The notes below the pieces were generated by a model that ran no database searches, was not told where the DNA came from, and saw nothing but the letters and a program-made list of their open reading frames with translations. Positions 32,356-48,138 of a DNA stretch of 64,000 nt are shown here, one piece after another (the first letter of the stretch is position 1; every line of letters begins with the position of its first letter). The stretch comes from Streptomyces changanensis. GTDB lineage: Bacteria; Actinomycetota; Actinomycetes; Streptomycetales; Streptomycetaceae. The position numbers and the translations under genes are program-made. Where the stretch lies: positions 2,170,001-2,234,000 of the forward strand of contig NZ_CP102332.1 in NCBI RefSeq assembly GCF_024600715.1. The letters are read 5' to 3'.

Positions 32356-32376
32356 GAGCGGATCTCCTTTCGCGGG

Positions 32377-32532: not shown

Positions 32533-32540
32533 GGGGCCTC

Positions 32541-32732: not shown

Positions 32733-32753
32733 GTCAGTCGGTCTCCTCTTGTG

Positions 32754-33446: not shown

Positions 33447-33670
33447 GGCCGCCCACCGGGGTGCTGGGGGCCGTCATGGGGGTCGCAGCCGGGCGGGAAG
33501 GCGCCGGGCGGCAGCTCGGGCAGGGAGACGGCCAGGGAGGGGCCGACGGCGTCGACGAAGTCAGGGTCGGCGCCGAAGGTGTGGGCGTACAGGGCCAGGG
33601 CGCTGAGCAGCTGAACCGTGCGGTGGAAGTCCTCACGGGCGTCCACGGGTTCACCTCCGGTTTCCGGCAT
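33443..33670 (-). CDS. Small hypothetical AICE protein
   Basis: 75 aa from ATG (complement of 33668-33670), stop overlapping the spdB2-like start (ATGA). Hydrophilic, with TVQLLSALALYAHTFG as its only helix-like stretch and a Pro/Gly-rich end. No known domain. Kept because of the coupling and position within the transfer operon. Confidence 0.65.
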   Translation of the reverse strand: MPETGGEPVDAREDFHRTVQLLSALALYAHTFGADPDFVDAVGPSLAVSLPELPPGAFPPGCDPHDGPQHPGGRP

Positions 33671-33727
33671 GGAAGGCGTAGTTAGCTGGCGCGAAGCGGT
33701 CGCGCCGACCGAGGCGGTGGGTGTGGG

Positions 33728-35092
33728 TCAGGCGGTGGCGGTGGCGGTAGCCGTCTTGGACAGCGGCACCCGCGCCGACGACAGCGAGGCGACCGCAGGC
33801 CGGAAGGGCGCGAGGGCGGGCACGTCGGGGGTGCGGTCGGCGTACTTGTTGCAGAGGTTCACGGCCTGGCGCAGTGAGGTGTGCGGGGCGCGGATGCGGT
33901 GCCAGCCGCCGGAGGAGTCCCCGGAGATGGCGAGCCCGCGGGTCTCGGCGGGGATCTGGATGGCGGCCAGGACGGCGTCCGGGGCGATGTCGCCGAAGGC
34001 CATGTTCGCGCTGGTCTCGTCGTTGACGCGGTGGGCGGTGCGGCCGGTGAGCTGGGCGCGGAGCATGGTGATGCCCTTGCCGAGTTCGGAGCCGAAGCGC
34101 TGCCCGCAGATCTCCAGGTAGATGCCGGCGGCACGGCCGAGCTGGGCGAGGCGGACCAGGGCGGTGATGATGCGGTCCCGGCGCTTCTCTTCCTCCTTGG
34201 AGGCGTACAGGGCGAGTTCGGCGACCTCGTCGACCAGGACCACCACCGGCACCGGACGGCGGTCTTCGGGCAGGTCCCAGATGTCGGCGGCGATTTCCGC
34301 ATCAGGCACAGCGACACTGATCCGCTGCTCGGCACGGATGAGCTGGTACACCTCCTGCATGTGCGTGACGAGCACTTCCAACAGTTCCAGGGCGGTGTCC
34401 GGGTTGTCGGCGAGCGCGGAGAACCGGCGTGCCAGCGGGAACAGCTCCACGCCTTGCTTGCAGTCGATGCCGACCAGGGCGACATGCTGAGGGGCGAGGC
34501 CGGCGACGAGGTTCCGCTGGTAGACGGACTTGCCGGACTCGGTCGCCCCCAGGGTCAGGCCGTGCGGAACGGCGCGGTAGTCGCGGTAGTGGACGGAGCC
34601 GTCCGCCCGGAGGGCGACCGGGACGCGCATCGGGCGGGGTTCGAGCCGGGCGGGCATCTGCACCCGCTTGAGCACGTCGTAGCCGGTCATCCGCAGCTCG
34701 ACCACGCCGGAACGCAGCTCGCGGGAGGTCACGCCGTACATGCCGAACGAGTGACGCAGCCGGTCCGAGGCGGCGGCGACATCGAAGGCGTCCTGCCCCG
34801 GACGGAGCCTGAGCCGGAGGACCAGCCCGGTGCGGGTGGGCCGCAGCCGCAGGATGCGCGGCGGGCGTGAGTCCGGCGCGATCCGGTTCGTCATCCGGGC
34901 CAGGGCCAAGCGCCAGCGGGGCGGCGGGACCGTCAGACCGCAGGAGTCCATGACCGAGGCGTAACGGAAGAGAACCCGCAGGACGGCGAGGGTGACCCCG
35001 AAGGTCAGCCAGTACCAGGCGGGACGCCGCCACCGCAGGAGACCCGCGGTAGCGACGACCACCAGCAGTAACAACACCGTCGGCCACGTCAC
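33728..35092 (-). CDS. tra: FtsK/SpoIIIE-like conjugal DNA translocase (TraSA-type)
   Basis: 454 aa. Two N-terminal membrane helices (PTVLLLLVVVATAGLL; WYWLTFGVTLAVLRVLF), a Walker A GATESGKS near residue 180, a Walker B region VPVVVLVDEVAELALY, and GRAAGIYLEICGQRFGS characteristic of the FtsK motor. Streptomyces Tra proteins form hexamers that move double-stranded plasmid DNA to the recipient after binding repeats in a clt locus. Upstream gene at 35096 is four bases away, so they are co-transcribed. Confidence 0.93.
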   Translation of the reverse strand: MTWPTVLLLLVVVATAGLLRWRRPAWYWLTFGVTLAVLRVLFRYASVMDSCGLTVPPPRWRLALARMTNRIAPDSRPPRILRLRPTRTGLVLRLRLRPGQDAFDVAAASDRLRHSFGMYGVTSRELRSGVVELRMTGYDVLKRVQMPARLEPRPMRVPVALRADGSVHYRDYRAVPHGLTLGATESGKSVYQRNLVAGLAPQHVALVGIDCKQGVELFPLARRFSALADNPDTALELLEVLVTHMQEVYQLIRAEQRISVAVPDAEIAADIWDLPEDRRPVPVVVLVDEVAELALYASKEEEKRRDRIITALVRLAQLGRAAGIYLEICGQRFGSELGKGITMLRAQLTGRTAHRVNDETSANMAFGDIAPDAVLAAIQIPAETRGLAISGDSSGGWHRIRAPHTSLRQAVNLCNKYADRTPDVPALAPFRPAVASLSSARVPLSKTATATATA

Positions 35093-35095
35093 GGC

Positions 35096-35452
35096 TCAGG
35101 CCGCCTTCGAGGCCGCGCCCGTGGCGGCCAGCGAGGTCACCGCGACCGCGCGGAAGGCGATCCCGTGCCGCTTCTGGCCGTTGAACTCGTTCTCCCACGG
35201 CCGCGCGATCAGGCCCGTGAGCGCGACCGGGATACCCATGGCCAGCTCCTCGGAGACGCCGGTCTCGGGAACGGTGAGGGAGAGGATCTCCACCTCGTTG
35301 TTCGCCGCGAACATCACGTCCACGGTCATCAGCTTCGCGCCGGTCTCGGCGTCCAAGGCGATCTCGCCGGTCCGGCGGTCCTTCACCTTGGGCTGCGGGG
35401 CCTTGGCGACCATCACGACGGCGTTGGAGGTGTCGACGGGGATCTGACGCAT
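35096..35452 (-). CDS. Conserved AICE protein upstream of tra
   Basis: 118 aa. Begins MRQIPVDTSNAVVMVAKAPQ, then a predicted beta-rich body (LMTVDVMFAANNEVEILSLT, GIPVALTGLIARPWENE, RHGIAFRAVAVTSL). The shape resembles a small OB-fold-like protein, but I cannot assign it. It is the first gene after the KorSA-type operators, so it leads the transfer operon. Same-position homologues are common in AICEs. Confidence 0.75.
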   Translation of the reverse strand: MRQIPVDTSNAVVMVAKAPQPKVKDRRTGEIALDAETGAKLMTVDVMFAANNEVEILSLTVPETGVSEELAMGIPVALTGLIARPWENEFNGQKRHGIAFRAVAVTSLAATGAASKAA

Positions 35453-35484
35453 GACAGAGCACTCCTCTATAGGTGCGGATCTCC

Positions 35485-35539
35485 GTCACTCATGTACATG
35501 AGTGACATGAAGAAGAGTGCAGAACTCCTGTACATGAGT
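35485..35539. promoter_or_regulatory. KorSA-type operators in the transfer promoter
   Basis: A perfect 22-bp palindrome occupies 35485-35506 (core ACTCATGTACATGAGT). A second copy with one mismatch, ACTCCTGTACATGAGT, lies at 35524-35539. They sit between the divergently placed transfer operon (35452) and the end of the GntR gene. pSAM2 KorSA represses through a conserved site of about this size in front of pra and korSA, so repression of transfer is the likely role. Confidence 0.8.
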
Positions 35540-35591
35540 CAACCCACCGCGACTCGGAAGTCTCGGCGGGTTGCGGTGAGTTGATGTCGCG

Positions 35592-36371
35592 TCAGTCGAC
35601 GGCGGGGATGCGGTACTCGAAAACGAACTGGTCAGCAGCCATGAGCGTGTCGCAGACCTCGACCACACGCCCCTCGGTCGTGCGAGCCTCACGGACCAGA
35701 TGGACCACCGCGGAACCGGGGCTGAGTGCGAGCTCGGACGCCTCCGCCTTGGAGGCCGGACGCGCCTGGAGCGTCTCGACGAACTCCGCGAACTCATGCC
35801 CCTGGTCTTCGAGTCGGGCGTAGATGCCACCGCCGCCAGGGTTCTCGGCGAACAGCTCCGGGATCTCCTTCACCACGTCCCACGGGAGGTAGGAAGTTGC
35901 GGTCTCCACCGGAGTGCCGTTGCGGAAGTAGAGGCGACGCCGGGCGAGAACCTGAGCGCCGACGTCGACGCCCAGACGCCGGGCGGCGTCCTCGGGCGCC
36001 TCCATGGGCCCGATGAACAGGACACTGACCTTGGCGGTGGCGCCGGACTGCGCCGACTCTGCGAGATAGGCGGCCTTGCCGCCACGCCGGTGCGAGCGGC
36101 GGAAGCGGTCGGAGGAGCGGTGCCGCACCGGCGGCCGGTCCTTCACGATCGAGCCCTTGCCGTGCCGGGTCTCCACCAGCCCGCTCGCGCGCACCTCGGC
36201 CATTGCCTTGCGGATCGTGCCGCCCGAGACCCCGTAGCGGTCGACCAGCTCGGACTCACTCGGCACCATGTCACCGGGCTTGAGGACCCCGGCCCGGATT
36301 TGCTGCACGATCTCGTCGGCGATCTGCACGTACCGAGGTACGGCCCTCTCACCTCCTACTGCGGTTCCCAT
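35592..36371 (-). CDS. korSA: GntR-family transfer repressor (KorSA-like)
   Basis: 259 aa. N-terminal GntR wHTH (PRYVQIADEIVQQIRAGVLK, MVPSESELVDRYGVSGGTIR, LVETRHGKGSIV) and a C-terminal UTRA effector domain (about 100-259, ending QFVFEYRIPAVD). In pSAM2 KorSA keeps replication, transfer and pif-linked genes silent. Its own upstream region contains the third TGTACATGAG operator (36392-36407), which also overlaps the start of the divergent Nudix gene, so autoregulation and co-regulation are likely. Confidence 0.88.
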   Translation of the reverse strand: MGTAVGGERAVPRYVQIADEIVQQIRAGVLKPGDMVPSESELVDRYGVSGGTIRKAMAEVRASGLVETRHGKGSIVKDRPPVRHRSSDRFRRSHRRGGKAAYLAESAQSGATAKVSVLFIGPMEAPEDAARRLGVDVGAQVLARRRLYFRNGTPVETATSYLPWDVVKEIPELFAENPGGGGIYARLEDQGHEFAEFVETLQARPASKAEASELALSPGSAVVHLVREARTTEGRVVEVCDTLMAADQFVFEYRIPAVD

Positions 36372-36391
36372 CGTCCTTCTCAGCCTCCTAT

Positions 36392-36407
36392 GCTCCTGTA
36401 CATGAGT
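36392..36407. promoter_or_regulatory. Third KorSA-type operator, overlapping the Nudix start codon
   Basis: GCTCCTGTACATGAGT matches the 35524 site at 15 of 16 positions. The ATG of the Nudix gene (36402) lies inside it, so bound repressor would block that gene directly and probably korSA as well. Confidence 0.75.
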
Positions 36408-36854
36408 GAATCACAGGGAGCCACGTCCGTACCGTTGCACTCGGTGTCCGTAGCCGGGGTCGTCGTACGCGAGGACGGGCGACTCCTGGCGATTCGCCGC
36501 GCCGACAACGGCACCTGGGAACTCCCCGGCGGAGTGCTGGAACTCGACGAGACCCCCGAGGCCGGCGTGGTCCGCGAGGTCCTGGAGGAGACGGGCATCC
36601 ACGTCGAGGTGGACGAGCTGACCGGCGTCTACAAGAACACGACGCGAGGCATCGTGGCCCTGGTCTTCCGCTGCAAGCCCTCCGGCGGCACCGAGCGCAC
36701 ATCGAGCGAGTCGACAGCCGTCGACTGGCTCACCCCGGACGAGGTCAGCGAGCGCATGGCCGAGGTCTACGCCATCAGGCTCCTGGACGCCTTGGACGGC
36801 AACGGCCCCCACGTACGGAGCCACGATGGAAAGCAGCTCATCACAGCGGGATAA
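36402..36854 (+). CDS. pif: Nudix hydrolase, probable Pif-like conjugal immunity protein
   Basis: 150 aa. The Nudix box is complete: GGVLELDETPEAGVVREVLEETGI (fits GX5EX7REUXEEXGU). N-terminus SVAGVVVREDGRLLAIRRAD is the usual first strand. In pSAM2 the pif gene, which encodes a Nudix-motif protein, prevents redundant conjugal exchange between element-bearing cells. Position next to korSA under a shared operator supports that role; a general housekeeping Nudix function is the alternative. The start has no clear ribosome site and may be nearly leaderless. Confidence 0.78.
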   Translation: MSESQGATSVPLHSVSVAGVVVREDGRLLAIRRADNGTWELPGGVLELDETPEAGVVREVLEETGIHVEVDELTGVYKNTTRGIVALVFRCKPSGGTERTSSESTAVDWLTPDEVSERMAEVYAIRLLDALDGNGPHVRSHDGKQLITAG

Positions 36855-37277
36855 GACTTTCCCTACTTCATCAAGGCGGCTCGCTGCGCTCACCGCGCGC
36901 GGCCCGACCCCCGGCCGGGCCTGCGCTCCTGTCTCCGCCCCGCTCCAGCCCGACCGGCGCCCGTGCCGCGAGTACAGCAATCAGCCACCAGAGAAGGGGT
37001 ACGTCGTGGCTGGGACGGTCGGCTCCACGGCTTTAGCCACCTCCCCGGTCAGGGTCCCGCATCGAGCAAGACCAGGGGGCCACTCGTGCTCATTGCGGTC
37101 AGGCCCAAAGCCTGCCCGAGTTGCCAACCAGCGTACGGCCCCCTGGCCATGCTCGACCCCAGACCGGGCAGGACACCGGCCAAACCCGCTCCGCCTTAAG
37201 TAGGCTTGCCTACGCCGCAACTGTGGCAGCATCAGGTCTGATGGGTATGGCCTGTCGCGACAGACAGGGGGACTGTA
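36855..37277. other. Intergenic stretch between backbone and low-GC cargo
   Basis: About 420 bases without a gene I can support; short frames on both strands look random. It marks the compositional step: GC-rich up to about 37195, then lower. A GTAGGC-TT-GCCTAC hairpin lies at 37200-37213 upstream of the cargo operon, and the promoter for 37278 is probably here. Confidence 0.45.
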
Positions 37278-37478
37278 GTGTCAGATGTCGGCCAACAAAT
37301 GATGACAGTGATTCGGGAAATAGACTCAGCGATTCGAGCGCCTGAGAACTCCCGTTCGACTGCCGACCAGAGCACCGCGCACGGGGTAGATCTTTCACTT
37401 TTGACCCTGCTCGCATCAGAACCCTTCGGCCCTCACTTGGTCCTCGAAAGGTTGATCGCAGATGCACATCAGGATTGA
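37278..37478 (+). CDS. Small protein, first gene of the cargo operon
   Basis: 66 aa from GTG 37278, with GGGGG seven bases upstream. Acidic, no known domain: MSDVGQQMMTVIREIDSAIR, then GVDLSLLTLLASEPFGPHLV which looks like one amphipathic helix-turn. It overlaps the start of the ATPase gene by 17 bases, so it is translationally linked to it. A small partner or regulatory subunit of the ATPase is a reasonable guess; nothing in the sequence proves it. Confidence 0.6.
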   Translation: MSDVGQQMMTVIREIDSAIRAPENSRSTADQSTAHGVDLSLLTLLASEPFGPHLVLERLIADAHQD

Positions 37479-39846
37479 AGCTGAAACCCGCCGCGGCCTC
37501 CGAATCATCGGCGAGATTCCCAGCATTCCACTCTGCAGAATCGAAGGCTACAACGGCATCGGTAAAACAAATGCCATTAAGCTTCTCAGGCTGTGCACGG
37601 GAGACCAACCTTTTACAGGGAACGATCATTCCTGGAGAACCTTCCGAAATCAGCTGAAGAGCGCGCGGGTTTCAGTTACCGACCTGCACGGGGCGCAGAA
37701 ATTGGAGTGGGCACTCGATCCAAGTCGCTGGCCTCAAGTTGCCGAACCACTAGGCGATCTAATCGGTGAGATTAGAATCGACGGACGATCCGCTCGACCA
37801 CGAGACATCACACCCCTTCTGAGCGTGCACCACGTCATGGCGGCCGATACACCCGTAAGCGTCCTATCTGAAAGACTCAGCACTGCACAAAAGCGAATCC
37901 AGGAGTGGGACGCCGAAGTTGGAAGGCAGCGCCAAGAAGAGGTAGAGCTCGCCCTGGGAGACCTGCAAAACAAGATCACTGATTGCGCACCATCACAGTT
38001 GTCACGCGAGCTCACGATCACATCCGAGACCGAAAAAATCGCGATTAGCCTGGCTAATCAATTGAAACTCGCACGTGAACGCGTCGAGCGGCTGGATAGA
38101 GCTGTCGAGATCTCCGCGCAGCTAACGCAGGTTCGAGGGCGCGGACCTGAAATGGATGAGAAAATTGAGGAGCTAGCGGCACACCTTGCTGATCTCGATC
38201 AACAGCGCCAGAAGCTCGACAGGCAGATCAAGAATGCGAGCGCTCAAAAGCATCAGAATGAGAAAGCCGAGAACGAGTTCGAGAACGCCCAAAAGCATCT
38301 AGTTCGTCGAGACAAGGCGCTGCGAACCATACAAAGCCATCTCCAGAACCTCGCGGCAGTTGTAGGAGTGGAGCCGACTGAGGATGCTCTCGCAGCAGCA
38401 CGCCGTGACACCAGTCAGCATCTGAATAGACTGCTCGAGCGACAACCTCGCGTTAACGCCACTCCGATGTTGTTGAGTCTGATCAGCAGCCTAACTTTTA
38501 GCTTGGAGAACGCAGAGGGAGCAGAGCATCTAGGCAACGAGCTCCTGATCTCTTCTAGTCAGGGGGGCACTGATTGGACTGTCACTGCTTTGAGGGAGGC
38601 GCTTCAGCATCGTGAGGCTGTCCTCCGCGAAGAAGCACCTTCAGCTGACGCCGAACAGTTGACGCAGGAGATCGAGGAAACGCGAGGCCGGCTCGGAGCA
38701 ATCGCGCAAACAGAAGCTGCATTGCGAGAGGTAGAAGCCGCCCAGACAGCCCTCGAAAAGGCCGAGGGCCGCCTACTAAAGGCGACGAAGGGGCTGCCTG
38801 AGCAAACAGCGCGCAACCTTGAAGACCTGATGTCAAACCGCGCAAGACTGGACCAAGAGGCTCGTGCTGTTCAAGCAGATCACGCCAGGCTGACTCATGC
38901 CCGAGAAGTACTCGGTGGTGGAAAAACTGAGGATGCTCTAGTGGCGGAGTTGGTGCAGCTATGCCGCGAGGCCAATGTAGAGGTTGCGCGCCTTAGAAAG
39001 CATCGCGAGAAGGAGCAGGCTGAGTTCGAGGAGCTGACTCGCCGAGAAGCCCAGGCCGCCCAGCAAGCAACTCTTGCTCACCGCAATTCCGAGAACCGCA
39101 TTTCCAGGGTCACAGCGACTGCGCGCTTCCTGAGTCAGAATCATGGACTCTCTTGGCTAAGGAGGGCATTCCCGAAGATCTCCTCCCTGCCCGGGCTCAA
39201 CGTTGCCGACCAAGCGCAAGCGTTGACAGAGGTGGCCTCTGCAATCGACAAGGCTCGTGACTCCCTAGGGTCCACCTATTCATCACTGCGCGGCATGGAA
39301 ACAGCACTCGGCCGACTGGAGTCGCGCATTCGCCAAAACAGCGGAGAAACAGGCACCGAGACTGCGTCCGATAGGGCAGCCAAGCGCTGGCTAGCGGATG
39401 AGGTTCGTCAGTGGTTCGAGAGCGAAGTCGTAAGAACGGCGCTGTTTAACGGAGGTAACAACGTCGAATTGGATCCCGACAGTCTGCAGCTTTCATGGAC
39501 AGCTGCGGACGGGCAGACTAACGAACGTCCACTCGCGGCATTCTCCAGTGGAGAGCAAGCGTTCGCCTACACGCAGGCGCAGGTCGCTCGTCTGGACCGG
39601 GACGATAACGCCGCTACCAACCGGCTTATCGCCCTCGATGAGTTTGGCTCATTCATTGACGCCAAAAACATGTCAGCCCTAGCCTCATACCTTCGGGGAC
39701 GACAGGCACAAGCACCCCACGATCAAGTCCTAGTGGTCCTTCCGCTTGAAGTTTCTCCGGCGATAGCGTCATCAAACGGAACTACGAACGAGCGAGTTAA
39801 CGCGCTTAGGCAGCGCGGATACTTCGCAGAGGCCTTTCAACTATGA
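37462..39846 (+). CDS. SMC/Rad50-like ATPase with long coiled coil
   Basis: 794 aa. N-terminal Walker A GYNGIGKT (29-36); the central 500 residues are charged coiled coil (e.g. EKIEELAAHLADLDQQRQKL, 225-245), with no CxxC zinc hook; the C-terminal half-site has the ABC signature FSSGEQAFAY (about 693) and Walker B RLIALDEFGSFID (about 720-733). This split-ATPase build is that of SMC/Rad50/RecF-type proteins, as found in Lamassu, Wadjet, AbpAB-like and ABC-three-component defence systems, though length and partner set do not match any I know. GC is low: 61 of 120 bases at 37501-37620 by hand count, against 50 of 60 at 2401-2460. Linked to both neighbours by overlaps. Confidence 0.85.
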   Translation: MHIRIEAETRRGLRIIGEIPSIPLCRIEGYNGIGKTNAIKLLRLCTGDQPFTGNDHSWRTFRNQLKSARVSVTDLHGAQKLEWALDPSRWPQVAEPLGDLIGEIRIDGRSARPRDITPLLSVHHVMAADTPVSVLSERLSTAQKRIQEWDAEVGRQRQEEVELALGDLQNKITDCAPSQLSRELTITSETEKIAISLANQLKLARERVERLDRAVEISAQLTQVRGRGPEMDEKIEELAAHLADLDQQRQKLDRQIKNASAQKHQNEKAENEFENAQKHLVRRDKALRTIQSHLQNLAAVVGVEPTEDALAAARRDTSQHLNRLLERQPRVNATPMLLSLISSLTFSLENAEGAEHLGNELLISSSQGGTDWTVTALREALQHREAVLREEAPSADAEQLTQEIEETRGRLGAIAQTEAALREVEAAQTALEKAEGRLLKATKGLPEQTARNLEDLMSNRARLDQEARAVQADHARLTHAREVLGGGKTEDALVAELVQLCREANVEVARLRKHREKEQAEFEELTRREAQAAQQATLAHRNSENRISRVTATARFLSQNHGLSWLRRAFPKISSLPGLNVADQAQALTEVASAIDKARDSLGSTYSSLRGMETALGRLESRIRQNSGETGTETASDRAAKRWLADEVRQWFESEVVRTALFNGGNNVELDPDSLQLSWTAADGQTNERPLAAFSSGEQAFAYTQAQVARLDRDDNAATNRLIALDEFGSFIDAKNMSALASYLRGRQAQAPHDQVLVVLPLEVSPAIASSNGTTNERVNALRQRGYFAEAFQL

Positions 39847-40841
39847 GTACGACCGTGCAGCGAGTGTTCGGGGTTCCCGCCATCTTGACGGGTGACGAGT
39901 GCGTAGCACTGATTCGCGACCTCACTCAGCTCTGGCATCTTTCGTATGACAAGGCGCCGGGCGCATTGGAAGCCGACCTAGCCATGTGTAAACGCTTTTT
40001 CGATCCTGTTGCACGTGGCCATTCCCTGCGTGATCGATTGGGCAAGCTTCCACCCACCCCAGCTGACTTGTTGCGTCGCGCCGGCCAGTACGGGGAACCG
40101 CTGGTAACTCAAGTGGGCGACAATGTATCGCTCGTGGGTATCGAGGCGCGACTCATGCTGGAATTGCTGGAGGAGCAGTACGCGGGTGATGACCACCTGG
40201 TGCTGACGCTGGCTGACATCGAATCAGCAGAACGCCATGCTATGGAACTCTACAGGGCATGGTCGATGGCGCGGCTAAACCAGGTAGTCGCCCTCAGAAG
40301 AGGGCAAGGAAGCGAGGTGATGCAGGCGATCGCTGTAGGGGTCGTAATCGCACTACTCGTCAACAGGTCGGATACTGAGGATAGAGCCGTAGTCAGGTGG
40401 CATCACTCGACAGCGAATGGTCAACAGGTGGACAGTGCCATCTTCGCCGGAGCTGAGGCATTCGCTGCTGAAGTGTCTCGGAACCGAAGCAGCCGCGCTG
40501 CCGGAGAACAACGCCTGAAAGGCGGCTACGCCCTTAGTGAGGCGCGTCGGCGTTTGGCTAACCAGCTCGTCGTAGCCCCTAACGGAAAAGATGGCGGCGA
40601 GCTCCTGTATATCCCCGCTCGACACAGGACGGAAGTTATCGCATTCCTTGGTCGAGATCTCGCCAGGCGCCCAAGGCTTACACAGGCTGTCCTTGCCTCA
40701 GCTTTTGATGCGCTGGTAAGCGCGTATCGCGGCGCCGCTGGCCAGCTAGCTCATCGCGGCATGGTCTTTGAGCGATCTACGGACACTCGCTCCCTTAAGG
40801 AAGAACTACTGCGAGAGTTCTCAACGGCGCAGCATCCATGA
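39843..40841 (+). CDS. Unrecognised 332-aa protein paired with the SMC-like ATPase
   Basis: 332 aa, start ATG overlapping the ATPase stop (ATGA). No nuclease, transmembrane or other motif is visible. The sequence looks all-helical at the start (LTGDECVALIRDLTQLWHLS; ADIESAERHAMELYRAWSMA) and ends with a helical region (TQAVLASAFDALVSAYRGAA). Position and coupling suggest a dedicated partner, effector or kleisin-like subunit of the ATPase. Convergent with the methyltransferase gene 90 bases on. Confidence 0.75.
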   Translation: MSTTVQRVFGVPAILTGDECVALIRDLTQLWHLSYDKAPGALEADLAMCKRFFDPVARGHSLRDRLGKLPPTPADLLRRAGQYGEPLVTQVGDNVSLVGIEARLMLELLEEQYAGDDHLVLTLADIESAERHAMELYRAWSMARLNQVVALRRGQGSEVMQAIAVGVVIALLVNRSDTEDRAVVRWHHSTANGQQVDSAIFAGAEAFAAEVSRNRSSRAAGEQRLKGGYALSEARRRLANQLVVAPNGKDGGELLYIPARHRTEVIAFLGRDLARRPRLTQAVLASAFDALVSAYRGAAGQLAHRGMVFERSTDTRSLKEELLREFSTAQHP

Positions 40842-40930
40842 ATTTGTGGTTCTGCGCCTTGATTCGTGAGGCCGGCGTTCTTCCTCGCGGGCTCATAAGA
40901 GATTGTGCTCAAGGAAGACGCCGGACCATT

Positions 40931-42265
40931 TCAATCACGGCGAAGCAATACCAACCGCTCTGCGAGTTGCACATTATGCCGGGTCGCATTGCTTGCCCAT
41001 CGCTGCCCACGGTGACGAAGGATTACATCCTCCTCCAGAGTGAATCCTTGACATTTCGCCAGCTTGGCAATCAATCCGGGTGTGTCAACGTAAACCCCAT
41101 ATGGCGCGCTGTCACCAACTAGCAAGACCGCGGGCGCTCCCGAGGCCAGTACTGTGGAAAGATTTTCCATAATTCGTGCGATCGCTACAAAGTAGTCGGG
41201 AACTACACGATCATACTCTTTTCCCCTCGATCGATTTCCTCTTTCTTTCTGAAGTCGATCGGCAATTTCACTGACCTCTGTTCCGACCGTCCCGTATGTC
41301 TGCAAAAGCGTCCTGGCATCGCTTGCAGCGCCTACGCTGCTCTGCTGAGTGGTAGCCGTAAGCATGTCAGAACGCACCTCGGCACACATTTGCGACCAGC
41401 TGGTAACGTCACCCCAGAAGTAGAGTTCCAGCCGCGTCGCGTCAGCGTAATCGAAATTGTTTAGATATGGCGGTGAGGTGACACACCCGTGCGCAGTGCC
41501 ATGCCCCAGTTCACTCCAGTTCATAGCCTCCCGGGAGTCGCCCTGTCTTACCCGGCATGCCGGCGAGGAAGAATAGTTGGCCTCAAACTCCCGCATATCC
41601 TCGACCATCCACCCGATACGCTGAAGGAAGCGAGTCAAGGGGTCGGCGAATGTCGGCTGCCGTTGACTTCCGGGTCTTTGGTATGGCCAACCAACACGCA
41701 CTGATGCGACATCTCTTAGTGTCGCTAGCAATGCCCATTTCAAATGCAAGTGCCATTCATGCGCTTGCATTTCTCGGATCAAATCGCGCAAGCTCACCAA
41801 AATGGCGAGCGTTTCGGGATCAAAACTGCGAAGTGTCAGGTCGGCTTCGCCGCTGATGTCGATGTCTGCCCTCGTCGTTATAACTTGTAGCGTGAGCTCA
41901 CGGGCAGTCGCGAGGAGCCCATTCGGGTCCTCTGAGGTGCGATCGAGTTTCAGAGCTGCAAGCTCAGCTATGAGCGGATGGGCCTCAACTCCGTAGAAGG
42001 CGTGACCAGCTCGCCTAGCCGCGGTACCTGCAACGCCTGACCCGGTGAAGGGATCAACTACAAGTCCTGCGGTGGGCAGCTGCAACTGCTGCAGGAGCAG
42101 GGAGGCATAGTCGGACGCGAAGCCTGCTGGGTAGCGAAACCATCGATCGAACGGCTCACTTCGGCTGGTGCCGTGCCGGCGTCCTCGTCCTGAGCTGGGC
42201 TCAAACACTGGTGACTCTTCCTGGAGGACCGCGCCCTCCGGCATCGGCCTGTGGTTATCGCTCAT
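40931..42265 (-). CDS. DNA modification methyltransferase (N4/N6 type)
   Basis: 444 aa from ATG (complement of 42263-42265); GTG 42271 is the alternative. Motif I VVDPFTGSGVAGTAARRAGH (about 70-89) and motif IV CVTSPPYLNNFDYA (about 262) identify an N6-adenine or N4-cytosine exocyclic amino methyltransferase. A region of about 150 residues between them may recognise the target, and SWSQMCAEVRSDMLTATTQQ is unusual. No restriction endonuclease gene is next to it; instead a kinase lies upstream on the same strand and the ATPase module opposite. It could mark self DNA for that module. Confidence 0.87.
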   Translation of the reverse strand: MSDNHRPMPEGAVLQEESPVFEPSSGRGRRHGTSRSEPFDRWFRYPAGFASDYASLLLQQLQLPTAGLVVDPFTGSGVAGTAARRAGHAFYGVEAHPLIAELAALKLDRTSEDPNGLLATARELTLQVITTRADIDISGEADLTLRSFDPETLAILVSLRDLIREMQAHEWHLHLKWALLATLRDVASVRVGWPYQRPGSQRQPTFADPLTRFLQRIGWMVEDMREFEANYSSSPACRVRQGDSREAMNWSELGHGTAHGCVTSPPYLNNFDYADATRLELYFWGDVTSWSQMCAEVRSDMLTATTQQSSVGAASDARTLLQTYGTVGTEVSEIADRLQKERGNRSRGKEYDRVVPDYFVAIARIMENLSTVLASGAPAVLLVGDSAPYGVYVDTPGLIAKLAKCQGFTLEEDVILRHRGQRWASNATRHNVQLAERLVLLRRD

Positions 42266-42326
42266 CAACACTCGCCCATTGGACCACGGTGACAGCCGTC
42301 ACCACCACGGTGATGCGGGATCGGAT

Positions 42327-43736
42327 TCAGCTGGCGCCGAGGATGGTGGCCAGCACGACACTGCGCGCTCGCCAACCAGGCTCTCTGTAGTACTCCACGA
42401 CGTCCTGTCGCGCGCCCAAGACCGGTGCGAGCGCACGGTCAAACGGCGCCTGGAGGTCGCCCAACCACTCTAGAGTCCGTCTGCGTTGGTCTTGATCCTG
42501 CCAGTGGAGTTCGGCGGCGAAGAAGTCTGGCGCGAGATCTTGCGCGTGTCCGAGGTTGTTGTTACCGACCAACGCCTGGAGGACCGTGAGTAGGAAGGCC
42601 AGCGGTGTACTTACATATTCCCTATCTCGATCATCCCAGGAGCCAGCAACAAGGTGCTTTGCCAGAACACCTGCCAGCAAAGCGGCTCGCTCGGGGTCAG
42701 AGTGGCACCAAGCACGTGTATGCCCAGTGGGTATCTGCGCGAAGTAATCGAAGTACAGGCTAGCGTCGTCTTGATGAGCGTCAACCAGCCGGACTAGCGC
42801 CTCTAGGCTTCCCTCCTGTCCGAGCGTGATCCCTTCCACCAGCCTGCGGGCCTTCGTTAGTACAGGCTCATCACGGTCGTTAAGTACCACCTGTACCATG
42901 TCCCGCAACTCAGACATGGTCTGCGTCCTCAACGAAGTCTCTTGCCGCGTGCATGCGTTGACAAATAGTCGCCAATGCAGGAACTCGCCGTCAGGGAGCA
43001 GCCGTACTCCGCTTGCAGGGGACGTCCCGGTGAGGTACCAAGCAGCAACGCGTCCGAGGCTGTACACATCCGCCGCTGGCGTGGCTTTACGGGGGTCCAC
43101 ACTCAGTTCAGGGGCATCGTATCCTGGCGTGCCCATCCCCTGACCGGTACGGGTGAGAATTCGGGAAGCCTCTTCAGGCGGACGACGAACCATGCCCCAA
43201 TCCGCTACCACCCACCGGTATCTTGCACCGCTGTCGCCAGAGAGAGCGAGGATATTTTGGGGAGAGATATCACGATGAACCAGCCCGAGTTGATGGGCCA
43301 CATCCAGGGCTTCACCGATAGCAAGGAGGATGGACGCCAGCTCCTCTTCGTCCGGCCCTTGGCGAAGGTCTTTGAGATTGCCGACCGCGCGAGGCATCGT
43401 GTACCACGTGAAGCCTGGATCGTGATCCAAAATCGGCATGATGTTAGGGTGGGCTAGCCGCTTCTGGTCCTGAATCTCCCGCTTGATCCTGTCCTGAGCA
43501 TCCTGGCGGTTGTAGGCGCGTTTGAGCGCTACCTCTTCACCCGTTTTCTTGTGCACGGCAGGGAATACCTGGGCATAGCTCCCGTGCCCCAGTGTTCGAG
43601 CGCCGAGACGATACCGCTCCTGTGCCTTGATGCTGCTGTCCGACGCACCTGCCATGGGACCCATCCCCCCCTCAGCCGGGTCAACTAGGCGCATATTACT
43701 GGACCTTGGCAGGAGTGACTGTTCATCTGGCCTCAT
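42327..43736 (-). CDS. Eukaryote-like Ser/Thr protein kinase with unknown C-terminal domain
   Basis: 469 aa from ATG 43736 (GGGGAC upstream); ATG 43664 after GAGGGG gives a start nearer the kinase domain. Kinase motifs: LGHGSYAQVFPAVHK, VALK (Lys72), HRDISPQN (153-160), ADWGMVRR (DWG in place of DFG, 178-180), GYDAPELS and ADVYSLGRVAAWYL. All catalytic residues are present, so it should be active. Residues about 300-469 form a helical domain I do not recognise; no transmembrane or PASTA segments. It is 61 bases upstream of the methyltransferase gene and likely co-transcribed. Kinases paired with methyltransferases occur in phage-defence systems such as Pgl and BREX type 2. Confidence 0.88.
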   Translation of the reverse strand: MRPDEQSLLPRSSNMRLVDPAEGGMGPMAGASDSSIKAQERYRLGARTLGHGSYAQVFPAVHKKTGEEVALKRAYNRQDAQDRIKREIQDQKRLAHPNIMPILDHDPGFTWYTMPRAVGNLKDLRQGPDEEELASILLAIGEALDVAHQLGLVHRDISPQNILALSGDSGARYRWVVADWGMVRRPPEEASRILTRTGQGMGTPGYDAPELSVDPRKATPAADVYSLGRVAAWYLTGTSPASGVRLLPDGEFLHWRLFVNACTRQETSLRTQTMSELRDMVQVVLNDRDEPVLTKARRLVEGITLGQEGSLEALVRLVDAHQDDASLYFDYFAQIPTGHTRAWCHSDPERAALLAGVLAKHLVAGSWDDRDREYVSTPLAFLLTVLQALVGNNNLGHAQDLAPDFFAAELHWQDQDQRRRTLEWLGDLQAPFDRALAPVLGARQDVVEYYREPGWRARSVVLATILGAS

Positions 43737-44404
43737 GTCCCCAATCCGCGGTCACTGGATGCGAGGGTGAGGTCGCCTAGGCTAGAGGGCGTGCTACGGC
43801 TGACCAATTAAGGAGTCGCGGCAGCCAGGCACAAGAACCGTCCGTGAGGCGCACGCCGAAGCTGTCGTACCAGCCAGATGACTGGTGCACGAGTTGACGC
43901 CAGGGTTCCCACCGAGCGCTGCGTCGGCGTATGTGTTCGTGCTGATTCTGCGGCTTGTACTGTCGAGTGGAGGGCGTTGGGCTTCGCATCCTGGCCCCAA
44001 CGAGTCTTCCCATGGGAGCTGAAGAGCCGTGGACGACCCGTGGACGACTCGTGCCCCACCGGTCTCAGCCACGCTGCGGCATGTTGCCGGCCAGCCCTTC
44101 CGCGGACCGCGGAGTGGCACACGGCTCCGGAGGGGCTGTGAGAACCGTCGAATGTTGCTGGTCACAGTAACGTTAGCCACCCCTGAGATGTTGCCGGTCC
44201 ACGAGTCGTCCACGAGTCGTCCACGAGTCGTCCGTACAGCGAGGCACACGCGCGCCTGATCGGTCGACGCGCCCGCCATCGTGGCTGACTGTCGTCGGCT
44301 GAGGTTCGTGCCACAACCGTGCCGGATGCAGCGGCCAGTCACGGTCCACCCCGGAGCCCTGTGGTCGACGTCCGGAGCGCTGCTCCTCCGTAAGGAGACG
44401 CGAA
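43737..44404. other. Intergenic region with iterated and inverted repeats
   Basis: About 670 bases with no supportable gene on either strand. It contains three tandem 11-mers CCACGAGTCGT (44199-44231), an inverted near-copy at 44028-44053 (26 bp, one mismatch to 44200-44225), and ATGTTGCCGG at two places (about 44081 and 44188). Such an arrangement could be a cis-acting transfer locus, replication origin or operator cluster. Confidence 0.55.
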
Positions 44405-44438
44405 GAGAGGCACCCAGCCCATGGCTTGGGTGCCTCTC
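44405..44438 (-). terminator. Terminator of the accessory small-protein operon
   Basis: Perfect 12-bp arms (44405-44416 and 44427-44438) with a 10-base loop that itself can pair GCC/GGC. It stands 52 bases past the stop of the last gene in the minus-strand operon. No U-tract. Confidence 0.65.
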
Positions 44439-44489
44439 CCATTGAGGTGGAACGGAAGTGGGCTCTCAGTTGTCGCCGCGCGCCGACCG

Positions 44490-44792
44490 TCAGAGGCGGT
44501 GGGGCTCGCTCGCAGTCAGGCGGTGACCTCGGCTGATTGCGATGCGGAGTACGTCTCGGAGGGCTCCGGTCAGTTCCTGTGCCACGTGGCGCAGGGCTTC
44601 CGTGTCGGCGTCCCCTGCGCCGAGGGTTTCCTCGGCCTCGACCAGTAGGTCGGCTGCCGTGCCCAGCTGAACAGCTTCGATGTTGTCGGCCAGGCGGGAC
44701 ATGTAGCTGTCCTTGTCGTCGGTGCTCAGGTAGCAGGGCTTGCCGTCCGGGCCGGACCACGGGAGGAGGCGTAGCTCGTTCGCTGTGGTCAT
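44490..44792 (-). CDS. Hypothetical protein, last gene of accessory operon
   Basis: 100 aa from ATG (complement of 44790-44792), overlapping the GntR stop (ATGA). Starts MTTANELRLLPWSGPDGKPC and continues as an acidic helical protein (DSYMSRLADNIEAVQLGTAA, LRHVAQELTGALRDVLRIAI). Proteins of this kind travel with GntR genes in Streptomyces mobile regions. Function unknown. Confidence 0.72.
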   Translation of the reverse strand: MTTANELRLLPWSGPDGKPCYLSTDDKDSYMSRLADNIEAVQLGTAADLLVEAEETLGAGDADTEALRHVAQELTGALRDVLRIAISRGHRLTASEPHRL

Positions 44793-45532
44793 GCTCGCGT
44801 CTGCCTCTCGTCGGTCATGGCGTGGGTGGTGAAGACGGCATCGACGCGGTCCCCCGGGAACACCAGGAACGCGGCTTCGACGACCCTCCCGGTGGAGTCG
44901 GTGGCCACACGCGTGATCGCGAGGACCGGCGCGGTGGAGTTGGTCCGGAGGGTCGATGCTTCGTCCGGTGTCGGTGGGCGGGCACAGGCCGTCTCCCGGA
45001 CAATGGCCGGCGGCAGGCTGAGGACAGCGAATCTCGTGACCGCCTCACGGCACAGTGGCTCGTCGCCGAGTACACCGTCCGGTGCCAGGTCCCGGGGGAT
45101 GTAAATGCGTGCCAGGCCATGCGGTGCGTCCCCCTCGTGGCTGACGCAGAAGAACTCTGCAAGGGGGCTTCCCGCCGGCACCTTCAGTAGTTCCGCCAAG
45201 TGCCCGTGCGCCCGGACCGTGGCGCAGCGCACTGTGATGTGCAGGGCCGCTTCAGCGGCCGTCCACGGGTCCAGCATCCCCCATCCGCCGACGTACATGA
45301 TCTTGCGGAGTGGACGGCGGACGAAGTTGCCCTTGCCGTGGATCTTCTCGACGAGTCCTTCGCCTTGGAGGACCGCGAGAGCGCGGCGCAGGGTCACCGT
45401 GCTCACTCTGTACCCGCTCGCCAGGACGGCCTCGGACGGTAGGCGTTCACCGGGCTTGATGCGGCTGGTCGCGATCTGGTTCCGGAGGTCGTCGGCGATC
45501 TCGTGATGGCGCGAGGCCACGGGCCCGGTCAC
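44789..45532 (-). CDS. GntR-family regulator with UTRA domain
   Basis: 247 aa from GTG (complement of 45530-45532). wHTH: HHEIADDLRNQIATSRIKPG, LPSEAVLASGYRVSTVTLRR, LVEKIHGKGNFV; UTRA effector domain from about 90 (AALHITVRCATVRAHGHLAE ... AFLVFPGDRVDAVFTTH). Second GntR protein of the element, distinct from the KorSA-like one. Embedded in a chain of overlapping small genes, so it probably regulates its own operon. Confidence 0.85.
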   Translation of the reverse strand: MTGPVASRHHEIADDLRNQIATSRIKPGERLPSEAVLASGYRVSTVTLRRALAVLQGEGLVEKIHGKGNFVRRPLRKIMYVGGWGMLDPWTAAEAALHITVRCATVRAHGHLAELLKVPAGSPLAEFFCVSHEGDAPHGLARIYIPRDLAPDGVLGDEPLCREAVTRFAVLSLPPAIVRETACARPPTPDEASTLRTNSTAPVLAITRVATDSTGRVVEAAFLVFPGDRVDAVFTTHAMTDERQTRA

Positions 45533-45753
45533 CGCCTTCCCATCATCCTGACGGCGACGAGCCGGGTACGGGCGTGCATCGTCAGCAGCTCGCCGGACTC
45601 GAAGATCAGTTGCTTGGCACCGTGGGGCAGTTGGAAGAGGTCCTGCACTCGGCAGAACAGTCCCCCGAGTTCTATGACATCGCCGCGCCGGACCGTGGCC
45701 GCCGTCACCTCGATGCTGGCGGCCGGCATCCTCCTGGGCGTGCGGTCGATCAC
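45529..45753 (-). CDS. Small conserved hypothetical protein
   Basis: 74 aa from GTG (complement of 45751-45753), with GGGAG eight bases upstream. Body: IEVTAATVRRGDVIELGGLF, then CRVQDLFQLPHGAKQLIFES, HARTRLVAVRMMGRR, a small beta-barrel-like pattern. Overlaps the GntR start by four bases. Function unknown. Confidence 0.7.
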   Translation of the reverse strand: MIDRTPRRMPAASIEVTAATVRRGDVIELGGLFCRVQDLFQLPHGAKQLIFESGELLTMHARTRLVAVRMMGRR

Positions 45754-45950
45754 TGTTCCACTCCCGCGCACGCGAACCGGTCGGGCGTCGAGTGGCACAG
45801 GCAGTCGCACCTCTCGTAGACCACGGGGATGTCGACCGGCGGCGACAGCGGCGAGGCCTCCGCGCACGTGGGGTGCGTGCCGATCCGGCATGCGGTGGAT
45901 CGGTAGGGGATGGCGGCGACGGTGGTGTGAGGCTGTCGGCGAGGCTTCAT
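45750..45950 (-). CDS. Small Cys-rich hypothetical protein
   Basis: 66 aa from ATG (complement of 45948-45950). Cys pattern ACRIGTHPTCAEAS ... YERCDCLCHS gives a possible metal site (C-x7-C ... CxCxCH). Stop and start overlap with both neighbours, typical of the operon. Similar short Cys-rich proteins are common beside GntR genes in Streptomyces. Unknown role. Confidence 0.65.
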   Translation of the reverse strand: MKPRRQPHTTVAAIPYRSTACRIGTHPTCAEASPLSPPVDIPVVYERCDCLCHSTPDRFACAGVEQ

Positions 45951-46258
45951 CCATGGGCTCCCAGAAGGGTCGAGCAGGCGTCAGCCGGCAGACGGGGGGC
46001 GACGATCACGGAACGGGTCCGTACGCGCTCCTCCCAGGCCAGCAGGTACGGACGTACGAGCGCGACGTCCTCACCGGCGAGTGGGTGCCGGTGGCCCTGG
46101 TCGCCGGCCCGGCCTGGAGGGGTTGTCGACTCGCCGGCGGACTCCGGGGGCACGGTCGCCGTCGACGGCCGGTAGGGCGCTAAGGATCGGCGGTGCCTGC
46201 CCTTGGGGAAGTACCGCGCTCTGGTGAGCGAGGCGGCACGGCGGATACGGTTGAACAC
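45947..46258 (-). CDS. Hypothetical basic protein
   Basis: 103 aa. Starts MFNRIRRAASLTRARYFPKG, strongly basic, then a Pro-rich middle and a C-terminus VALVRPYLLAWEERVRTRSV with VVAP-type ending, which resembles short proteins found repeatedly in actinobacterial integrative elements. Overlaps the start of the Cys-rich gene by four bases. No known domain. Confidence 0.65.
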   Translation of the reverse strand: MFNRIRRAASLTRARYFPKGRHRRSLAPYRPSTATVPPESAGESTTPPGRAGDQGHRHPLAGEDVALVRPYLLAWEERVRTRSVIVAPRLPADACSTLLGAHG

Positions 46259-46270
46259 GCTGCTCAGCTC

Positions 46271-46576
46271 CTATCGCTGATGGCTCGGTCCCCCGACATC
46301 GCCCGTCGTGGGGACCGCTTTGCGTACGACCGCCCAGAGGGTGCGGTCGTTCAGGCTGGTGGCCAGAAGCCCGAACCGGTCGGCCTCGGCCACCACTTGG
46401 AGGACCCCCCGCCATAAGTCCGCGGAGAGCGATCCCGGCACTTCCGCTTCGACCGTCGTGTGCCGGTCGTGCTCCTGCACACGTGCGGGAAGCCCGAGGG
46501 CGGACAACCGGGCGGCGATGCCCGCCGCGCTAACTCCCGAAGCGGGCACAGGGCAGCCTCCGTCACCGGCAATCAC
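46271..46576 (-). CDS. Hypothetical protein, first gene of accessory operon
   Basis: 101 aa from GTG (complement of 46574-46576). ASGVSAAGIAARLSALGLPA, HTTVEAEVPGSLSADLWRGV and ADRFGLLATSLNDRTLWAVV suggest a small alpha/beta fold. It is transcribed away from the CTAG operators and the GntR pseudogene, 12 bases from the following gene. Function unknown. Confidence 0.68.
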   Translation of the reverse strand: MIAGDGGCPVPASGVSAAGIAARLSALGLPARVQEHDRHTTVEAEVPGSLSADLWRGVLQVVAEADRFGLLATSLNDRTLWAVVRKAVPTTGDVGGPSHQR

Positions 46577-46587
46577 TTTCAGTGAAG

Positions 46588-46618
46588 CTAGTTAACTAGG
46601 TTAGAGCTAGTGGACTAG
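46588..46618. promoter_or_regulatory. Twin CTAGTNNACTAG operators
   Basis: Two 12-bp palindromes, CTAGTTAACTAG (46588-46599) and CTAGTGGACTAG (46607-46618), lie 19 bp apart centre to centre in the 51-base gap between the accessory operon and the divergent GntR gene. CTAG is rare in Streptomyces DNA, which makes the pair stand out. Likely binding sites for the GntR protein whose gene adjoins them. Confidence 0.75.
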
Positions 46619-46627
46619 ATTTTCCAT

Positions 46628-47249
46628 ATGCCTGAGCAGCCGCCCTATCTCCGCGTCGCTGACGAGCTTCGGCGGCGGATCGCGGAGCACGTATGGGAGC
46701 CGGGAGATCGTCTGCCGTCCCGCGCCCAGATCGGTCAGGAGTGCGGGGTCGGTGAGAACGTGGTCCGGCGGGCTCAGGAGCTGCTGATCTCCCAGGGCGT
46801 GCTGGAGGGCCGCGCCGGTTCGGGCACGTACGTCGCCGAGCCCCGACAGCGTGTGCGCATGGTGCGGTCGGCCGCGCGTGAGCGGCCCGACGGGTCGCCG
46901 TTCCGGGTGGACATGAAGGCCTTGGGCAAGCGAGGGGACTGGGAGAGCCGGACCGACGCCAAGGTGCCGGCGCCCGCGGACATCGCGGTCCGGCTCGGCA
47001 TCGCCGAGGGAGACCCGTGCGTCCGCACGGTGGTACGAGTTCCTGGCCGACGGCAGGCCGATGCAACCGGAGCCGAGGCAGGCGACCGCCGAGGAGGCGT
47101 CACTTCTGGGCATCCAGAAGTCCGCGCTCGTCACCCACATCCGCCGGACCTACTACAGCGACGAGGGGCGGCCGGTGGAGACGGCGGACATCGTGGTGCC
47201 GGCCGCCCACTGCGAGATCGTCTACGAGATCCCGATCATTCGTCCCTAG
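46628..47249 (+). pseudogene. GntR regulator broken by frameshift and UTRA deletion
   Basis: The wHTH is intact (PYLRVADELRRRIAEHVWEP, LPSRAQIGQECGVGENVVRR, VLEGRAGSGTYVAEP). After CVRT at about 47027 the reading moves to another frame, where WYEFLADGRPMQPEPRQATA and then the UTRA end (SALVTHIRRTYYSDEGRPVE ... EIVYEIPIIRP, stop 47247-47249) continue. In addition some 50-60 residues normally found between ADGRP and the PEPRQ segment are missing. An uninterrupted but wrong-frame product would reach 47257. The effector domain is destroyed; a DNA-binding fragment could still be made. Confidence 0.75.
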
Positions 47250-47299
47250 TGCTGTGACCGCATAGGTGGACGGGTCGGCGGTCGTAGCGGTTGGATGTC

Positions 47300-47932
47300 C
47301 TACTTGACCAGCCGGAAGGCGGGGTGCCCGGCCCAGGCCCGCAGGAACTCCGCCGTTCCCAGCGCCATCCAGTCGTCGTCCGCGATCCCCAACACCCCCG
47401 GAAGGCCGGCGACGACCGGCGCCTGTCCGTCCAGCAGCTCGGCTTTGGCCACGCCCCCGATGACGTCCATGACAGCGGCGGTCAGCAGGGCCGTGGCCAC
47501 GTGGTCGATCTCGCGATTGCAGCCGGCGCTGACATTGACGGCATGGGTCGGCCTGAAGCCGAGGACGGCCTCTACCTCGGGCTCGTCCGCGTGCTCAGCC
47601 TCGAAAATGCTCTCATCGCCGACACCCGGCCCCATCAAGTAGACCAGGAACGGCCGACGCCAATCCTCGCGCTGCGGATTGAATCCCACCAGGGCCCTCA
47701 GCCCCTCGTCCGCGGAGGTGTCGTCGAGGAGTGGAAGCGGGAACGGCTTTCGCCAGTCCTCCCCCCGCCTGTCCTCGACGCCCAGTCGCTCTGCGGGCAC
47801 GTTGACGTCGAAGCACCCGGGCCGCTCCTCGTCAAAGTGCGAGGAGACCCCCACCATCAACGCGCGAAACTCCCGCAGCGCAACCGGGGAGAGCGGCTCC
47901 GCCAACTCGATCACCAACGTCGGTCCAGACAT
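47300..47932 (-). CDS. DUF6368-like protein
   Basis: 210 aa, ATG at the complement of 47930-47932. MSGPTLVIELAEPLSPVALR, DVNVPAERLGVED and THAVNVSAGCNREIDHVATA match the actinobacterial family I know as DUF6368 (immunity-like in size and context), with the C-terminal DDWMALGTAEFLRAWAGHPA. Stand-alone gene near attR. Function unknown; family assignment from memory. Confidence 0.78.
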   Translation of the reverse strand: MSGPTLVIELAEPLSPVALREFRALMVGVSSHFDEERPGCFDVNVPAERLGVEDRRGEDWRKPFPLPLLDDTSADEGLRALVGFNPQREDWRRPFLVYLMGPGVGDESIFEAEHADEPEVEAVLGFRPTHAVNVSAGCNREIDHVATALLTAAVMDVIGGVAKAELLDGQAPVVAGLPGVLGIADDDWMALGTAEFLRAWAGHPAFRLVK

Positions 47933-48051
47933 GCTGGGAGCCTACGTTGATCGGCTCCCCGACCTCCTCAGATTGTTCCCACACCGAGTACAGCCGGTCC
48001 GAGCACCGACGCCACCAACCCAGCGAACCTATGCGGTCAGAACACTAGCCC

Positions 48052-48070
48052 GTCGAATGCGTGTCGAAGT
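48052..48070. promoter_or_regulatory. Candidate integrase arm-type site, right end
   Basis: GTCGAATGCGTGTCGAAGT, one base different from the left-end copy at 28933-28951 and in the same orientation, 69 bases inside attR. Binding by Int or Xis is inferred. Confidence 0.5.
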
Positions 48071-48138
48071 CGGGCCGACGGGATACCGAGAGCGAGAGGC
48101 GAGCCAGGTCAGCGGGGGTATGGCGTTGGAGTCGCCGA

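Follow-up and report, generated by a model that had tools for sequence, protein, structure and literature searches.

Which task do five genes of low guanine-plus-cytosine (GC) content perform that lie side by side in a mobile element of Streptomyces changanensis, and do the two convergent operons that they form belong to each other? The genes were found in a 64,000-nucleotide stretch of contig NZ_CP102332.1 (assembly GCF_024600715.1, positions 2,170,001 to 2,234,000), which is referred to below as the window. An initial annotation, made from the sequence alone, had seen at positions 37278-43736 a coupled operon for a small protein of 66 aa, a split ABC ATPase of 794 aa and a protein of 332 aa that converges on an operon for a protein kinase and a DNA methyltransferase. 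It had placed both operons in the cargo position of an actinomycete integrative and conjugative element (AICE) and had proposed an undescribed defence system. All five open reading frames (ORFs) were retrieved at these positions; the first three overlap by 17 and 4 nt, and the kinase and methyltransferase genes lie on the minus strand (40931-43736). The five genes form one unit, and this cassette, which is real, conserved and mobile, is probably an undescribed defence cassette. Defence is likely its function.

Conservation of the five-gene arrangement

A scan of GTDB-species genomes with an alignment of the 332-aa protein yielded 11 loci. Ten of these contain the genes for the ATPase, the 332-aa protein, the methyltransferase and the kinase in the order and orientation of the window; the eleventh is a variant, L012, which is treated below. 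The same four genes are present in three further loci (L033, L034, L036) from Micromonosporaceae, the family of genome G779. L035 and L037 were dropped as duplicates of L011 and L007, and L013, L014, L016-L024 and L026-L031 as short re-finds of loci already counted; the short matches in L015, L025 and L032 are marginal (E 5.6e-4 to 8.4e-4) and do not enter the counts, and L038, the stretch around L032, was outside the analysis. The small gene was detected by tblastn in 11 of the 13 related kinase-type loci and was located by position in the other two (L011, L036) as well as in L012. In each of the 14 kinase-type loci, i.e. the window and its 13 relatives, the five genes follow an identical order and orientation, and this arrangement is kept down to identities of about 37-55%. 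The equivalents of the small gene are ORFs of 61-80 aa that extend into the ATPase gene, by 17 nt in 14 of 15 loci and by 11 nt in L007. The overlap of 4 nt between the genes of the ATPase and the 332-aa protein recurs in 13 of the 14 kinase-type loci. The kinase and methyltransferase genes are separated by 54-73 nt in 11 of these loci and by 3, 3 and 114 nt in the remaining three.

When the window copy was compared with four relatives (L003-L006), dN/dS ranged from 0.07 to 0.13 in the four large genes and from 0.22 to 0.32 in the 66-aa gene. All five ORFs are therefore real genes under purifying selection. Furthermore, the distance matrices of the five proteins from 13 loci correlate with r values of 0.86-0.98; for each of the 10 pairs, none of 2000 label shuffles reached as high a value, shared phylogeny not being removed. 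The test was run without the S. tricolor locus L002, whose identity to the window is 98-99%. The correlations reflect joint inheritance and not physical contact.

These data bear on the possibility that two unrelated operons have become neighbours by chance. Their convergent orientation and the hairpin between them would fit such a case. Its probability is negligible, however, because all 14 kinase-type loci keep both operons so arranged down to the low identities given above, and because the arrangement holds in two AICE loci in which the cassette is inverted relative to the Tra gene. The neighbourhood analysis contradicts this reading. The initial annotation had suggested searching for the five genes in conserved order elsewhere and had regarded a kinase-methyltransferase pair that never travels with the ATPase operon as evidence against its proposal; the pair does travel with the ATPase.

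Table 1. Coordinates of the cassette, its carrier element and further features of the window
Feature	Position	Strand	Remark
66-aa small protein	37278..37478	+	17-nt overlap with ATPase gene; translationally coupled, ATPase partner
794-aa SMC/Rad50-like split ABC ATPase, long coiled coil	37462..39846	+	
332-aa orphan protein	39843..40841	+	constant partner of the ATPase in 15 compared loci
Inverted repeat between convergent operons, possible bidirectional terminator	40870..40927	.	RNA fold
446-aa amino-DNA-methyltransferase (by motifs)	40931..42271	-	motif order DPFTGSG then TSPPY
469-aa Ser/Thr protein kinase, C-terminal helical-looking domain	42327..43736	-	
AICE carrying the cassette, about 19.4 kb	28741..48185	.	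47-bp att repeats 28741-28787, 48139-48185
Integrase-like	28967-30361	-	named by eye
Rep-like	30555-31961	-	named by eye
Tra/FtsK-like	33728-35092	-	named by eye
GntR-like	44789-45532	-	named by eye

The inverted repeat between the operons has a folding energy of -32.7 kcal/mol (z -3.6), and none of 200 shuffled sequences was equally stable; a simple terminator scan missed it. It may serve as the end of the transcripts of both operons.

Protein families and comparison with described systems

The ATPase scored above the cut-off of no curated family in Pfam or NCBIfam. Its match to Pfam SMC_N (1.2e-4, 22 bits) lies under the cut-off of 40, and a profile of its family matched SMC6 over residues 515-774 (8.7e-5). 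Walker A (G-x-N-G-x-G-K-[TS]), the signature (F-S-S-G-[EQ]-Q) and the D-E of Walker B are unchanged in all 60 aligned rows; a CxC or CxxC motif occurs in none of them. Because Walker A is split from the signature and Walker B by a coiled coil, the protein is assigned to the SMC/Rad50-type superfamily by these motifs.

At E <= 0.1, none of the libraries Pfam, PADLOC, NCBIfam and PHROGs contained a match for the 332-aa protein. Its family has at least 96 members according to phmmer and at least 173 when a distant-clade profile is used; both searches scored the best 8000 candidates, and 120 of the 173 members were listed. Relatives with organism names are mostly from Actinomycetota, with single metagenome-assembled genome (MAG) records of Chloroflexi and Gammaproteobacteria, and the records bear the name 'hypothetical protein'. 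The protein is predicted to be mostly helical, and its C-terminal half is possibly winged-helix-like in the predicted fold; the resemblance of this half to MukF, ScpB and JetABC chains is at noise level. For the 66-aa protein, the same four libraries contained no family above cut-off; the only match was IFT43 at 0.086, far under its cut-off. Nuclease families from Pfam, PADLOC and NCBIfam matched none of the core proteins.

The methyltransferase matched Pfam N6_N4_Mtase (2.1e-7, 31.6 bits, cut-off 26.7) and, among the best 25 of 30 PADLOC matches, MTase_II PDLC03306 (1.1e-45). The motifs D-[PC]-F-[TA]-G-[ST] and [ST]SPPY are present in 14 of 14 loci. By its D-x-F-x-G motif, which is expected to bind S-adenosylmethionine, and its [DNS]PPY motif, it is classified as an amino-DNA-methyltransferase. 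The kinase matched Pfam Pkinase (9.4e-28); HRD, a D-W-G that replaces DFG, A-P-E and a VAIK-type lysine are conserved in the alignment of the 14 loci. With the catalytic Lys, HRD and the DFG-like residues kept, it has the sequence hallmarks of an active Ser/Thr kinase. Among the best 25 of its 33 PADLOC matches, the best defence model is mad6 (7.2e-36); PglW is matched with 4.2e-17.

According to the initial annotation, this combination fits no set that can be named, and a nuclease, a PglZ-like phosphatase and homologues of JetA, JetB and JetD are missing. Both statements held in the searches of Pfam, PADLOC, NCBIfam and PHROGs, which gave no confident match to a known system. The defining features that were tested for MADS, Pgl/BREX, Wadjet, ABC-three-component (ABC-3C) and CxC systems are absent from the cassette.

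MADS consists of eight genes, among them those for a DNA methyltransferase, a Ser/Thr kinase and an ATPase. The cassette resembles it in having these three functions and in the mad6 match of its kinase. However, the kinase reached only 91.5 bits with the NCBIfam equivalog MAD6 (NF047741, cut-off 460), the best stretch being residues 132-245 only. Furthermore, PADLOC listed 10 families for the ATPase at E <= 0.1, of which none is mad3, and the cassette has five genes instead of eight, two of which (66 aa and 332 aa) match 0 PADLOC or NCBIfam families.

Pgl, i.e. type 2 BREX, is likewise a methylation-based Streptomyces system with a methyltransferase, a kinase and an ATPase, as stated in PMC12839542. 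Compared to it, the ATPase of the cassette is SMC-like, and the kinase scored 56.6 bits with the PglW equivalog of NCBIfam, whose cut-off is 990; the five proteins have no PglZ family among their Pfam and NCBIfam matches (E <= 0.1). Wadjet (JetABCD) and MukBEF share with the cassette an SMC-like ATPase and an accessory protein. In contrast to both, the cassette has a methyltransferase and a kinase. JetA, JetB and JetD gave no sequence match, and the ATPase is, at 794 aa, shorter than the JetC profiles (1068-1472).

An SMC-like coiled-coil ATPase is also the common feature with Lamassu, ABC-3C and DdmABC. It is rather unlikely, but conceivable, that the cassette is a divergent member of one of these or of the CxC-ABC/DndE/methylase systems, the 332-aa and 66-aa proteins being accessory subunits that escaped recognition. 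LmuB and other SMC-like PADLOC models do match the ATPase, and PMC10586767 describes Lamassu as a coiled-coil ATPase sensor with varied effectors. The best LmuB match (1.2e-6, 26 bits) is weak, however, and its stretch (138-703) is mostly coiled coil; a confident match of this kind had been named by the initial annotation as evidence against novelty. LmuA, LmuC and middle components gave no match with the 66-aa or 332-aa proteins, and no Pfam middle component (MC) was matched at E <= 0.1. With single-sequence templates, hhalign gave a probability of 10% for one ABC-3C-type ATPase and of 0.4% for one MC2. Unlike Lamassu, ABC-3C and DdmABC, the cassette carries a methyltransferase.

Similar in composition are the CxC-ABC/DndE systems. 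As PMC10853773 describes them, a coiled-coil ABC ATPase occurs there with a partner that binds DNA and a fast-evolving small protein, and sometimes with an N4-cytosine methylase. PbeABCD and its methylase-bearing relatives thus resemble the cassette in ATPase, partner, small protein and, in some cases, amino-methylase. They differ from it in the CxC hook, for which the 60 aligned rows are negative, and PbeC scored 11.5 bits only. Where those systems have a helicase-nuclease, which the cassette lacks, the latter has a kinase or SIR2. None of the titles and abstracts searched describes this gene set; preprints were not covered, and an earlier description is possible.

Possible mechanism and role of the kinase

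The reading that we prefer is a methylation-linked, SMC-type cassette directed against invaders and carried as AICE cargo; for its full mechanism, we consider the chances to be about even. The methyltransferase would modify an amino group within a specific sequence of the host chromosome and thereby mark it as self, as its family and motifs suggest. A dimer of the SMC-like ATPase would scan DNA together with two partners: the 332-aa protein would be its accessory, of a DNA-binding or of a kleisin/KITE-like kind, and the 66-aa protein would be a small, coupled subunit with a regulatory role. Such a complex is suggested by the ABC/SMC motifs, the gene overlaps, the joint inheritance and the noise-level fold resemblance mentioned above. 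When it meets invader DNA that is unmodified or has an abnormal topology, the complex might switch its state and activate the kinase, which would then phosphorylate host or phage proteins and so stop the infection; its conserved catalytic residues are compatible with this step. The initial annotation had likewise supposed that methylation marks self DNA and that kinase and ATPase sense or execute.

The role of the kinase can be considered in the light of the variant L012, which comes from an Acidimicrobiia MAG and consists of a single run of overlapping genes. Its core comprises a small protein of 64 aa, an ATPase (26-27% identity) and a 332-like protein (36%). The fifth gene codes for a SIR2_2 protein of 523 aa (PF13289, 2.8e-7), which is predicted to be an NADase by its NAD-consuming domain; no relative of the kinase was found across 21 kb. 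The methyltransferase of L012 has 316 aa, and its motifs come in reverse order (TSPPY before DPFSGSG), by which it is classified as not orthologous to that of the cassette. Adjoining this cassette on the opposite strand (12785-14004), a second N6_N4-type methylase-like gene and a small gene with a sub-threshold match to UPF0102 (0.053) were seen.

Because the SIR2 protein takes the place of the kinase while the core is kept, the kinase is favoured as the executor. This one locus (n=1) suggests that the effector is exchangeable and that the kinase acts as an output module, for which the predicted NADase would substitute where the kinase is missing. In its widest form, the proposal would define a new class of innate immunity: a scanner of the SMC-like type, equipped with orphan subunits of its own (one kleisin-like, one small), would read the methylation state of DNA and release an exchangeable output. 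In Streptomyces and Micromonosporaceae this output would be a Ser/Thr kinase, and in a distant branch it would be a SIR2 NADase. This generalisation is tentative and, in our estimate, somewhat improbable. The natural difference between kinase and SIR2 would allow for separating sensor and effector.

The main rival to an effector kinase is a switch of the Pgl type: the kinase would phosphorylate the methyltransferase, the ATPase or the 332-aa protein, and the SMC-like complex itself would arrest or degrade DNA. Kinase and methyltransferase are co-directional neighbours, as a regulator and its target often are, and the kinase matches the kinase domains of PglW and MAD6, which belong to methylation-linked systems. 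However, the SIR2 protein of L012, which occurs with the core and without a kinase, is more easily read as a swap of effectors, and the core proteins matched no nuclease family. We regard such a switch as unlikely.

Relatives of the kinase occur in 385 plasmid records. Five relatives on Streptomyces plasmids, 31-39% identical, were inspected; they form the C-terminal part of proteins of 656-929 aa. In L040 (5975-8293), the relative is fused behind a Cap4 nuclease domain, and in L042 (2472-8248) it adjoins ABC-3C MC2 and a RecN-like ATPase; for the relatives in L039, L041 and L043, the annotation shows no clear defence gene nearby.

The principles of the preferred mechanism are known separately, namely methylation-linked multi-gene defence and the SMC-type ATPase, and the families of the 332-aa and 66-aa proteins are unnamed in the libraries used. 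If it is true, the cassette joins DNA methylation marks, as in BREX and MADS, with SMC-type scanning, as in Lamassu and Wadjet, which are usually treated apart, and is spread partly by AICEs. Its layout is compact and testable and contributes two orphan families.

The carrier element, its cargo slot and the distribution of the cassette

ARAGORN detected a tRNA-Arg(TCT) at 28714-28787, and a second copy of the tRNA lies at 48108-48185. The 3' parts of both copies contain an identical sequence of 47 bp, as is the case for att sites, which brackets the cassette. GC content is 0.578 in the cassette, 0.703 in the remaining AICE and 0.766 in the window outside of it. The cargo position and the much lower GC content that had been noted initially were thus borne out. 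The backbone genes are presumably those of an AICE; the names integrase-, Rep-, Spd-, Tra- and GntR-like were assigned by eye.

Could the cassette serve its carrier, by maintenance, by exclusion of competing plasmids or AICEs or by epigenetic addiction, phage defence being secondary or absent? The cassette is AICE cargo, a homologue of the AICE Tra gene lies in the flank of 6 of the 13 related kinase-type loci, and the SMC-type system Wadjet acts on plasmids according to PMC12904381. On the other hand, no Tra homologue was seen in 7 of the 13 loci, in flanks of about 7-10 kb only, and genes of anti-phage type fill the same slot in some other AICEs. We consider a mere service to the carrier quite improbable. 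In two of the six loci with Tra (L008 and L009), the orientation of the cassette to Tra is opposite to that in the window and in the remaining four, which suggests that it entered more than once or flipped in place.

The slot lies between the GntR-like gene and its neighbour (44490-44792) on one side and Tra on the other; across genomes of the same genus, differing and mostly low-GC cargo was seen in it. A homologue of the border gene at 44490-44792 is present in 162 of 256 same-genus genomes. Twenty slot loci (L074-L093) were surveyed, and 30 ORFs of 18 loci, not every slot ORF, were scanned: 20 ORFs from 11 loci with PADLOC and Pfam, and 10 ORFs from 7 loci (L074, L075, L076, L084, L086, L089, L091) with PADLOC only. 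L088 and L093, the latter with the ORF layout of L092, were outside the scan. The ORFs were picked for size and were mostly of low GC; the sample is therefore not random.

Recognisable defence genes were found in 6 of the 12 scanned slots with both borders in view: GmrSD_N, HEPN and a C5 methylase in L077; DRT UG23 with Sa_NUDIX in L081; DRT UG23 in L092; PARIS-like AriA/AriB in L083; GmrSD_N with an N6_N4 methylase in L087; and TIR in L082. L091 gave a weak DzbB match, and the ORFs scanned in L074, L076, L085, L086 and L090 gave none. In the six slots with one border, L078 and L079 matched the PADLOC candidates PDC-M28B/C and L084 weakly DzbB; the ORFs scanned in L075, L080 and L089 gave no match. 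As a control, 0 of 10 non-slot proteins from the same stretches, which were not GC-matched, had a PADLOC match at 1e-5. Cassette genes were labelled in 0 of the 20 surveyed slots. Such recognisable genes in part of the other strains agree with the initial proposal of a defence candidate, and the slot is a place where further Streptomyces defence systems can be mined. For example, L074, L075, L076, L080, L085, L086, L089 and L090, which are PADLOC-negative for the ORFs scanned, could be searched for new systems.

The cassette is rare. The 332-aa gene was found in 3 of 392 same-genus genomes, one of which is that of the window (one more marginal short match was not counted), and in 6 of 350 genomes from the family of G779, including G779 itself and G778 (one more marginal). 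A phylum-wide draw of 396 genomes contained it in 2, both from the genus of the window and one of them the window's own. Among 395 genomes of the class of L012, only the genome of L012 itself has it (one more marginal). In 101 same-genus genomes, a full-length methyltransferase (E <= 1e-30) is present only in the window's genome G000 and in G056 (78%), and beside G000 a close kinase orthologue (E <= 1e-50) only in G056 (82%). The other five kinase matches outside G000 are 33-38% identical and lie within open frames of 730-1008 codons. G000 and G056 also hold the 332-aa gene. All of these counts are small.

Two minor observations concern a remnant of the pair and repeats in the carrier. On the 5.4-kb contig C210 of G028 (L104, 4432-5049), a kinase fragment (residues 43-85) runs directly into a methyltransferase fragment (residues 60-219) with an internal stop; judged from this sequence, it looks like a decayed copy of the kinase-methyltransferase pair. 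Near the GntR-like gene of the window, short repeats of the gtggacgac/gtcgtccac type were read by eye in opposite orientations at 44029-44060 and 44195-44230. They may be operator or origin sequences of the AICE.

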